Positions 1 through 3,838 of a DNA stretch of 64,000 bases are shown one piece after another. This stretch comes from Myxococcales bacterium (lineage in GTDB: Bacteria > Myxococcota > Myxococcia > Myxococcales > JAJYLH01). Within the stretch, counting starts at the first letter, position 1. Each line of letters starts with the position of its first letter. Below the pieces are notes generated by a model. The model ran no database searches and was not told the origin of the DNA. It worked only from the letters and a program-made list of their open reading frames with translations. Position numbers and translations under genes: made by a program. The stretch is taken from contig JAJYLH010000010.1 in the NCBI GenBank assembly GCA_021787845.1, forward strand, positions 1-64,000, read 5' to 3'.

Positions 1-126
1 GGGTACCCCTTGCGGCCCGCTGCGTTCACATCGACGCGCGAGGGGTACCCCTTGCAGCCCGCCGCGTTCACATCGACGCGCGAGGGGTACCCCTTGCAGC
101 CCGCCGCGTTCACATCGACGCGCGAA
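1..126. repeat. 42-bp tandem repeat, three copies, cut by the window edge
   Basis: Three near-identical 42-bp units begin at 1, 43 and 85. Each starts with the perfect palindrome GGGGTACCCC, less its first G in copy 1, and contains GCGTTCACATCGACGCGCG. The first copy starts at base 1, so the array may continue to the left. The unit length is a multiple of three and one frame is open through all copies, but codon use and the lack of a start argue for an intergenic array rather than a gene tail. Copies differ at only a few positions, so expansion is recent or homogenised. Confidence 0.8.
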
Positions 127-185
127 GGGGGGCCACCGATGTGCCCCCTTGGCCAGGGCTTTCAAGATGGTTCCGTTCCATCGTA

Positions 186-823: not shown

Positions 824-3800
824 TTACTTCGTCGCGCTCCTGCCGCTCGCAGCTTTCTTTCTCGTCGGAGGCGCCGATGCGCTCTTCTTCGCGGCGGCGG
901 CGCGGCGGGGGCGAGCGGGCTTCGCGGCGAGAGGATCCTTCCCCATCGCGAGGAGCTTCTGCGCGCGCGCTTCGAGGAGCTCCACCGCCTCCGCGATCGT
1001 CAGGCTCGTCGGGGCCTTGCCCTTGGGCAGCGACGCGTTGAGCGTCCCGTCGGTCACGTAGGCGCCGAAGCGGCCGGGCATCACCTTGAGCGGCGCGCCG
1101 GTCTTCGGGTGCGCGCCGACCTCGGCGAGGGCGCCTCGGCGGGTCTGGCCGCGCCGCGCTTTCGGTTGCGCGAAGATGCCGACGGCCTCGTCGACCGTCA
1201 CCGTCGCCAGCGCCTGATGGTTCGGCAGGCTGCGCGTCTCGGTGCCCATCTTCAGGTACGGCCCGAAACGTCCGTCCTGCGCCGTGATCGGCTCGCCGGT
1301 CGTCGGATGTGCGCCGATCGTCCGCGGGAACGACAGGAGCAGCCGCGCCTGGTCCAGCGTCAGGCTCTCCGGCGTCATCCCCGGCCAGAGGCTCGCCATC
1401 TTCGGCTTCGGAGCTGCGGTCTTCGCCTTTTTCTTGCCGTTTCCCGAGGGGCCCTTCTTCACCCGGACACTCACGTGTCCGGCTCCATCTGCGTTGCGCT
1501 CGTGTCCGGCTCCATCAGCGTTGCGCCCGTGCCCAGCTCCATCAGCGTTGCGCCCGTGTCCGGCTCCATCAGCGTTGCGCCCGTGTCCGGCTCCATCAGC
1601 GTTGCGCTCGTGTCCGGCTCCATCTGCGTTGCGCTCGAGTCCGGCTCCATCTGCGTTGCGCTCGAGTCCGGCTCCATCGTTGCGCTCGCCGTTCGCCACA
1701 CCGTCTTCCATGTTGCCGAGCTGCACGTAGGGCCCGAACCGTCCGACCTTCAGGTAGATGGGCTTGCCCGTTTCGGGATCGGTCCCCAGCGCGCGGTCCG
1801 ACAGCTTCGACCGCTCGAGGATGCGATGAACCATCTCCGTCGACAGCTCGTCGGGCGGGAGGTCGGCCGGGACGTTCGCGCGCGGGCCGTCGTCGCCTTG
1901 TTGCAGGTACGGCCCGTAGCGGCCGACGCGCACGACGATTTCATGCCCGTCTTCATCGTGCCCGAGCGGGATCGACGTGATCGACCGCGGGTCGATTTCT
2001 TCCCAGCCGGTGCCGATGCGCTTCTTCAGACCCTCGTTGAGAATCGTGTGGCCGTTGCCGTTCGTCGCGTGGCCAGTGCCGAAGTAGAACTCCTTGAGCC
2101 ACGGCGTCGCCTGGCGCTCGCCCGACGCGATGAGGTCCAGGTCCTCTTCCATGTGGGCGGTGAAGTCGTAGTCGACGAGCTCCCCGAAGTGGCGCTCCAG
2201 GAGGTTCACCACCGCGAACGCGGTGAACGTCGGGACGAGGGCGGTGCTCTTCTTCCAGACGTACTCGCGGTCCAGAATCGTCTGGATGATCGACGCGTAC
2301 GTCGACGGCCGCCCGATGCCGCGCTCCTCCAGCTCCTTGATGAGCGACGCTTCCGTGTACCGCGCCGGCGGCTGCGTCTCGTGGCCCTTCGCCTCCATCG
2401 AGACCGCGTCGAGCTCCTGCCCCTCGCGCAGCGCCGGCAGGACGCGCTCCTGGTCCTCCAGCTCGCTCTCCGGATCGTCCGAGCCCTCGACGTACGCCCG
2501 CCAGAAGCCGGGGAAGGTGATGACCTTGCCCGACGCGGTGAACGTCGCCCGCTCCCCGTCGGCGTCGGCGGTGAAGGTCACGTTCGTCCGCTTGCCCGTC
2601 GCGTCCTTCATCTGCGAGGCGACCGTGCGCTTCCAGATCAATTCGTAGAGCCGGAGCGCGTCGCCATCGAGCTCACCGCGAAGCTCGTCCGGGGTCCGGA
2701 AGACCGCTCCTGCCGGGCGGATGGCCTCGTGGGCCTCTTGAGCGCCCTTGACCTTCTTCGCGTAGACGCGCGGCGACTCCGGCAGGAAGTGCGCGCCGTA
2801 CCGCTCGGCGACCAGGTTTCGCGCGGCGGTGATCGCCTGCTGCGAGAGCGTCGTCGAGTCCGTTCGCATGTAGGTGATGTAGCCGTTCTCGTAGAGGCTC
2901 TGGGCGATGCGCATCGTCCGCTGGGCGCCGAACCGGAGCTTGCGCGCCGCCTCCTGCTGCATCGTCGAGGTGATGAACGGCGGGTAGGGCCGCTCGACGA
3001 ACGGCTTCTCGGTGACGGTCGCGACCGTGAAGACCGCCGTCCGGAGCGCGACCGCGACCCGCCGCGCTTGCGCCTCGTCGATGAGCCGCACCGCGTCCGG
3101 GTTGTTCAGCGCGCCCGTCTCGGGATGGAAGTCCTTCCCAGTGGCGACGCGCTTGCCGCCCAGCTCGGTCAGGTGCGCCGCGACCTTCTCCTTGGGCTCG
3201 CGCGTCGCCAGGATGCCGTCGACGTCCCAGAAACCCGCCTTGACGAACCGCATCCGGGCGCGCTCGCGATCGACCACGAGCCGCACCGCGACCGACTGCA
3301 CCCGCCCCGCGGAGAGGCCGCTCTGCACCTTGCGCCAGAGCACCGGCGAGACCTCGTAGCCGTAGAGCCGGTCGAGGATGCGCCGCGCCTCCTGGGCGTC
3401 GACGAGCTGGTGGTCGAGCCCGCGCGGGTTCTGCAGCGCTTCCTCGATGGCCGGCCGGGTGATCTCGTGGAAGACCATCCGCTTCACCGGCACGTCCGGC
3501 TGGAGCACCTCGAGCAGGTGCCACGCGATCGCCTCGCCTTCGCGGTCTTCGTCGGTCGCGAGGTAGAGCTCGTCCGCGCCCTTCGCGAGGTCCTTGAGCT
3601 TCTTCACCTGCGTGCGCTTCTTCGCCGGCACGATGTAGACCGGCGCGAAGTCGTGCTCGACGTCGACGCCGACCCGCGCCCAGGGCTGGTCCTTCACCCG
3701 CGCCGGAATCTCCGCCGCCGTCGACGGCAGGTCGCGCACGTGGCCCATCGACGCTTCGACCTGGAAGCCGGCGCCGAGAAACCGGGAAATCGTCCGCGCC

Positions 3801-3838
3801 TTGGCGGGGGACTCGACGATGACGAGCGACCTTTTCAT
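824..3838 (-). CDS. topA: DNA topoisomerase I (type IA)
   Basis: About 1004 residues. It relaxes negatively supercoiled DNA by single-strand passage. The start MKRSLVIVESPAKA is the canonical Toprim opening, and GGGAGG lies upstream of that ATG. The longer frame further upstream is not part of the protein. The catalytic tyrosine is Y323 in GYITYMRTDS. After the core come several RFGPYVQLG-type C-terminal repeats rather than zinc fingers, ending in a Lys/Ala-rich tail. Residues about 718-789 are an odd, low-complexity insertion of nine-residue repeats encoded by the 27-bp tandem array at 1474-1686. It lies between C-terminal repeats, so the core should be intact. topA follows dprA by 58 bp, a common pairing. 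Confidence 0.96.
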   Translation of the reverse strand: MKRSLVIVESPAKARTISRFLGAGFQVEASMGHVRDLPSTAAEIPARVKDQPWARVGVDVEHDFAPVYIVPAKKRTQVKKLKDLAKGADELYLATDEDREGEAIAWHLLEVLQPDVPVKRMVFHEITRPAIEEALQNPRGLDHQLVDAQEARRILDRLYGYEVSPVLWRKVQSGLSAGRVQSVAVRLVVDRERARMRFVKAGFWDVDGILATREPKEKVAAHLTELGGKRVATGKDFHPETGALNNPDAVRLIDEAQARRVAVALRTAVFTVATVTEKPFVERPYPPFITSTMQQEAARKLRFGAQRTMRIAQSLYENGYITYMRTDSTTLSQQAITAARNLVAERYGAHFLPESPRVYAKKVKGAQEAHEAIRPAGAVFRTPDELRGELDGDALRLYELIWKRTVASQMKDATGKRTNVTFTADADGERATFTASGKVITFPGFWRAYVEGSDDPESELEDQERVLPALREGQELDAVSMEAKGHETQPPARYTEASLIKELEERGIGRPSTYASIIQTILDREYVWKKSTALVPTFTAFAVVNLLERHFGELVDYDFTAHMEEDLDLIASGERQATPWLKEFYFGTGHATNGNGHTILNEGLKKRIGTGWEEIDPRSITSIPLGHDEDGHEIVVRVGRYGPYLQQGDDGPRANVPADLPPDELSTEMVHRILERSKLSDRALGTDPETGKPIYLKVGRFGPYVQLGNMEDGVANGERNDGAGLERNADGAGLERNADGAGHERNADGAGHGRNADGAGHGRNADGAGHGRNADGAGHERNADGAGHVSVRVKKGPSGNGKKKAKTAAPKPKMASLWPGMTPESLTLDQARLLLSFPRTIGAHPTTGEPITAQDGRFGPYLKMGTETRSLPNHQALATVTVDEAVGIFAQPKARRGQTRRGALAEVGAHPKTGAPLKVMPGRFGAYVTDGTLNASLPKGKAPTSLTIAEAVELLEARAQKLLAMGKDPLAAKPARPRRAAAAKKSASAPPTRKKAASGRSATK
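1463..1686. repeat. In-frame 27-bp tandem repeat seeded by a family B palindrome inside topA
   Basis: Eight units of 27 bp start at 1474, 1501, 1528, 1555, 1582, 1609, 1636 and 1663; the last lacks 3 bp. Typical content is CGTGTCCGGCTCCATC followed by AGCGTTGCGC. On the coding (minus) strand each encodes a variant of NADGAGHGR. The array abuts CCGGACACTCACGTGTCCGG at 1463-1482, the same palindrome and flanks found in intergenic DNA at 573. Unit length is nine codons, so copy-number change keeps the topA frame. Confidence 0.85.

Follow-up and report, generated by a model that had tools for sequence, protein, structure and literature searches.

REPs of the GTAG/CGTC type consist of a foot and a hairpin, are mostly intergenic, form head-to-head dimers, and in some cases lie in ORFs, where they encode tens of residues (Di Nocera et al. 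2013, PMC3733652). The genes that carry such intragenic copies are often ones for DNA replication and repair, flexible linkers have been proposed as the sites, and the shorter Rickettsia elements RPE-4 and RPE-6 were classed as CGTC REPs inside genes (PMC3733652). Neither topA nor topoisomerase is mentioned in the main text of that paper. In Pseudomonas, a doublet, the REPIN, is the dispersed unit and tandem REP arrays also occur; the focus of that work was extragenic (Bertels and Rainey 2011, PMC3116915). Transposases of class 3, which occur with high-copy hairpins, were described as rare and as needing further work (Quentin et al. 2018, PMC6006769).

The locus analyzed here lies in the topA gene of a 64,000-nucleotide stretch of DNA, called the window below. 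Two features define the gene and its extra segment:

824 to 3838, minus strand: topA, DNA topoisomerase I, a complete ORF of 1004 aa.
1418 to 1690, minus strand: segment encoding the extra TopA residues, about 717-807, that are not in the TopA of same-order relatives.

The 1004-aa ORF scores 834 bits against TIGR01051 topA_bact (cut-off, 456 bits) and contains the Toprim and Topoisom_bac domains followed by four Toprim_C_rpt repeats. Matches to the TopA of relatives stop at about query residue 712 and restart at about 810, in several genomes with few bases between, and the gap at about 717-807 is also visible in the alignment with same-order relatives; it is these more distant relatives that provide the empty-site comparison. 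The extra residues, whose absence elsewhere the preliminary description proposed to check, are missing in eight same-order relatives with a TopA of the same type. Among these eight, L018 carries an unrelated lysine/alanine-rich insert in the same linker. The insert described here is about 90 Gly/Asp/Arg-rich residues long, occupies the linker between GRFGPY-type C-terminal repeats 2 and 3, and probably makes it a disordered one. A search of the whole genome with TopA gave a single topA match. The gene is generally held to be essential; if so, an insert in the sole topA must be compatible with function.

The insert contains a palindrome, CCGGACACTCACGTGTCCGG, at 1463-1482, which belongs to a larger element:

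1463 to 1486, minus strand: REP in topA, with a GGAG foot at 1483-1486 and a hairpin, CCGGACAC-GTGA-GTGTCCGG, at 1463-1482.
1446 to 1462, minus strand: 3' tail of this REP, beginning GTGAAGAAGGGCC and resembling the extended consensus GTRCAGGCAGGGCC.
424 to 596, unstranded: REPIN, an intergenic pair of REPs downstream of topA whose hairpins (428-447 and 573-592) stand head to head.
385 to 669, unstranded: 285-bp composite repeat holding this REPIN, with several near full-length genomic copies of 86-95% identity.

The element is translated as codons GAGHVSVR, and the location of the palindrome inside an intact 1004-aa ORF, first pointed out in the preliminary description, was confirmed. The identity claimed there with the copy at 573-592 did not hold, one loop base being different (TGAC there, TCAC in topA). 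The CACCC and GGCTCCA sequences described as flanks are indeed common to nearly all copies, but they are the GT tail and the GGAG foot of the REP itself.

The palindrome is a REP-type element present in about 250-300 genomic copies. With up to three mismatches it is found four times in the window, 0.04 matches being expected from shuffled sequences, and with up to one mismatch it is found 301 times genome-wide on both strands, while a reversed control pattern gives none. A strict pattern of foot, hairpin and GT occurs 246 times in this genome, and 146 other genomes of the class yielded no match to it; the relatives have five scattered one-mismatch matches in all, none with foot and tail. From 169 sampled copies, the design on one strand is GGAG (sometimes GAAG), CCGGACAC-GTSA-GTGTCCGG, and GT, followed by a weaker tail, RCAGGCAGGGC. 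A GGAG or GAAG foot is present in 155 of the 169; the stem is 8 bp and the loop 4 nt. In a consensus of 131 copies, GRAG, the hairpin and GT are near-invariant and information drops outside them. For the topA tail, about 1% of random window positions score as high over tail positions 3-20. The family thus has the properties by which REPs are recognized: i) high copy number; ii) a short palindrome with a conserved foot, GGAG instead of the usual GTAG; and iii) a mainly extragenic location, coding sites accounting for 5 of 86 sampled clusters. Neighboring REPs less than 400 bp apart are oriented head to head in 59 of 83 pairs, forming REPIN-like doublets; the topA REP is a singlet. Each REP variant, as read from its sequence, is free of stop codons in five of the six frames and can therefore be readily translated.

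The foot and hairpin, the dimers and the intragenic copies are shared with the REPs of PMC3733652, the foot here being GGAG and not GTAG or CGTC. Doublets and tandem arrays are held in common with the Pseudomonas REPINs, from which the family differs in sequence and in RAYT class.

A second palindromic family, GTAGGGCGGGGGCTTGTCCCC, is also present in the window, at 183-256 and 472-543, with 89 matches in the genome at up to two mismatches (control, 1). One GTAGGGCGGGGGCTTGTCCCC pair is nested within the REPIN at 424-596.

A TnpA-Y1-like gene is found on another contig (C84) between copies of the topA-type REP, one on its 3' side and four on its 5' side at 51-bp spacing. A transposase gene with copies of one REP on both sides is the arrangement that defines a REPtron. 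Its protein scores 21 bits with Pfam Y1_Tnp, slightly below the curated cut-off of 23. The nearest relatives are planctomycete proteins, with up to about 40% identity and class 3 TnpA-Y1 motifs, and the class-3 context is recognizable (HVH, WT, xVxxxQ). The catalytic position is His, where 79 of the 81 aligned sequences have Tyr, and no alternative Tyr is seen in the catalytic part of the protein in this alignment. Of the two hallmarks of class 3, HUH and a catalytic tyrosine in a Y----Q motif, the first is therefore present, as HVH, and the second is not. The Tyr to His change suggests that the transposase is inactive, and from its sequence the gene is probably a dead class-3 relative. A search of the genome for a second full copy gave none.

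A repeated exact hairpin was detected at 18 other class-3 loci, one of which (L127) is an N-run artefact. When this locus is removed, hairpin copies flank the gene in most cases. Their stems resemble the one described here, and their loops are mostly GTAA, GCAA, GTGA or GCGA, to be compared with GTSA here; most of them fit G-Y-N-A. This likeness is an argument that the REP family and a class-3 transposase belong together, though not that the transposase is active at present. The class-3 context, the planctomycete relatives and the high-copy hairpins at C84 recall the class 3 TnpA-Y1 genes and REPtrons of PMC6006769; the differences are the foot, CnGA there and GGAG here, and the His in place of the catalytic Tyr. 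The host, if it belongs to the Myxococcales, is probably outside the phyla stressed in that study.

Another transposase gene (contig C24 of the genome, L009, 1324-1788) matches the NCBIfam model for the REP-associated tyrosine transposase with 81.2 bits (cut-off, 80). It has a Y---NP motif and lies between two copies, in direct orientation, of a repeat of ~180 bp that starts with CAGTAGGATGGACAGTCC.

In topA, the REP is joined to a tandem array:

1475 to 1684, minus strand: in-frame minisatellite of eight units at 27-bp spacing, encoding (N)(A)DGAG(H/L)(E/G)R.

TRF reports a period of 27, 7.6 copies and 94% matches at 1474-1678, and the GGAG motif occurs eight times at a spacing of exactly 27 bp; the unit number is that of a draft assembly, in which short repeats may be mis-sized. 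On the coding strand, the unit AACGCWGATGGAGCCGGACACGRGCGC consists of 15 bp, the GGAG foot and the 5' arm CCGGACAC, without the 3' arm. Only the last unit runs on, into GTGAGTGTCCGG, to complete the REP hairpin. The duplicated segment ends exactly at the boundary between arm and loop. None of the eight units lacks the REP foot, and each retains the arm wholly or for the most part: the REP-proximal unit matches the consensus perfectly, the first two have CTC for the CAC of the REP, and a further unit carries two changes in its arm. The eight adjoining units and their exact spacing are as given in the preliminary description; the palindrome, described there as abutting the array, is its last unit, and foot and 5' arm recur in every unit. 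Elsewhere in the about 580 kb sampled, single arms lacking a partner hardly occur, and the half-REP array is apparently special to topA. Other REP arrays, with periods of 51, 72 and 112, duplicate the whole element; likewise, an array built from half a REP and its flank sets topA apart from the REPs of PMC3733652. The array region folds no better than shuffled sequences (z about 0), and the REP hairpin is within the predicted structure.

Since the units consist of foot and arm and the hairpin is whole in the last unit alone, the order of events appears to be the REP first and then an array from its half. We consider it very probable that this is an intragenic REP with a minisatellite grown from one REP half within topA. 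The steps would be as follows: i) a REP, perhaps mobilized by a class-3 RAYT, inserted into the TopA linker between C-terminal repeats 2 and 3 in a frame without a stop; ii) slippage during replication at the hairpin may have duplicated the 15 bp of 5' flank together with the foot and 5' arm; iii) more slippage among the 27-bp copies would have brought the array to eight units; and iv) the insert was presumably tolerated by TopA as a neutral change. The view of the palindrome as a dispersed element that entered topA, and of the in-frame 27-bp repeat as its outgrowth, is thus supported.

The reverse order is unlikely. In that case a repetitive TopA linker by chance held GGAGCCGGACAC, which offered a REP a site of homology for insertion or recombination. 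The genome does contain many coding tandem repeats unrelated to REPs, and the relative L018 has its different lysine/alanine-rich insert at the same linker. However, a chance 12-base match between the unit and the REP foot and arm would be needed, and the perfect REP-proximal unit together with changed arms in the others fits decay from a REP ancestor.

Tandem repeats are unusually abundant in this genome; outside the surroundings of REPs, TRF lists about 200 rows with a period of at least 15 in 560 kb (L046-L105). Many of the periods there are divisible by three, e.g. 18, 21 and 42. With tandem repeats so abundant away from REPs, growth of the topA array need not have depended on the hairpin. 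Near REPs, the density of arrays is about 2.6 times higher, counted from overlapping rows; a general role of REPs as seeds of tandem arrays was considered and not adopted, since TRF rows overlap and arrays abound throughout the genome. A 42-bp tandem repeat is also present at the contig start (window 1-138) and recurs near the end of contig C94 (L091, 17564-17745), as though the repeat at both contig ends had broken the assembly.

The genome search for the palindrome in other genes proposed in the preliminary description yielded four further coding REP sites, in a sample of about 580 kb around 86 REP clusters. A REP was called intragenic from a codon-usage score, with coding on both sides and one open frame. 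The coding score was revised twice before topA was recovered, its windows finally being set beyond the array; the threshold was fixed after topA had failed, and the resulting 5 of 86 clusters is therefore a descriptive count. The intragenic set is supported not by this count but by the score gap, the sites having at least 0.21 and the rest 0.0 or less. The hosts are:

topA;
a biotin-dependent carboxylase fusion (C82);
a membrane protein with a PMT_2 match (C94);
an unnamed 1267-aa protein (C84);
a 522-aa protein (C63).

An empty-site comparison is available for four of the five. Orthologues of the carboxylase are without the REPIN region, an adjacent paralogue of the PMT_2-like protein is without the REP region, and in the 1267-aa protein the REP is missing, by eye, from the second, homologous half. 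These intragenic REPs occupy linkers or loops amid conserved stretches. A 72-bp REP array on contig C92 (L089) was rejected as an intragenic candidate because it precedes the likely start of a permease.

Two of these genes contain further repeats. In the PMT_2-like gene (L091), a second, unrelated dispersed repeat is inserted at query residues 409-472; its translation matches many places in the genome on both strands, and the adjacent paralogue does not have it. In the carboxylase linker (L084), just upstream of the REPIN, there is a palindrome of the GGGGCTTGTC type together with a GTRRPLP peptide that is repeated, so that several repeat families have entered one linker.

The REPs in unrelated genes bear on a second alternative, in which unit number is adaptive and the array is a contingency locus whose length would set the distance between the C-terminal DNA-binding repeats of TopA and hence supercoiling. 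The site between C-terminal repeats 2 and 3 suits such a role, gains or losses of 27 bp keep the frame, and pairing of the lone 3' arm with one or another of the 5' arms would allow in-frame slips. Occurrence in unrelated genes points to neutral tolerance instead, and the several substitutions among units indicate that the array is not freshly homogenized; we regard adaptive unit number as improbable. It is quite improbable, too, that the REP hairpin in the sole topA acts as a source of in-frame 27-bp copy changes that heritably vary TopA repeat spacing and supercoiling between cells. A protein repeat arisen by chance or selection and unrelated to mobile DNA can be dismissed as hardly credible, for although tandem-repeat glycine-rich linkers are common in proteins and the genome has other coding arrays, hairpin, foot and tail fit a family of about 250-300 copies against zero control matches.

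The REP origin of the topA minisatellite also agrees with the other evidence by which it was to be judged, none of the relatives compared sharing the insert and other genomic copies being plentiful. Its resemblance to the Rickettsia palindromes, proposed in the preliminary description, is one of insertion mode: in both, dispersed palindromes lie in frame in protein genes. In kind, the element is a REP, with a foot, a short hairpin, doublets and a class-3 RAYT, and not a longer RPE-1-like one. RPE-1 measures about 100-150 bp and has no known transposase.

Intragenic REPs and the comparison with Rickettsia were already published in 2013 (PMC3733652). As far as our searches show, the GGAG REP family, its insertion in the sole topA and the in-frame minisatellite from half a REP are apparently new. 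The locus provides a dissected case of the passage from selfish palindrome to protein, by insertion into a linker followed by growth of a minisatellite from one half of the element, and within the same genome there are parallel insertions with empty sites. The route from selfish DNA to protein sequence is known but little studied. The family also adds to the poorly studied class-3 group of REPs, together with a candidate hairpin signature, the G-Y-N-A loop, whose presence can be looked for in further genomes.
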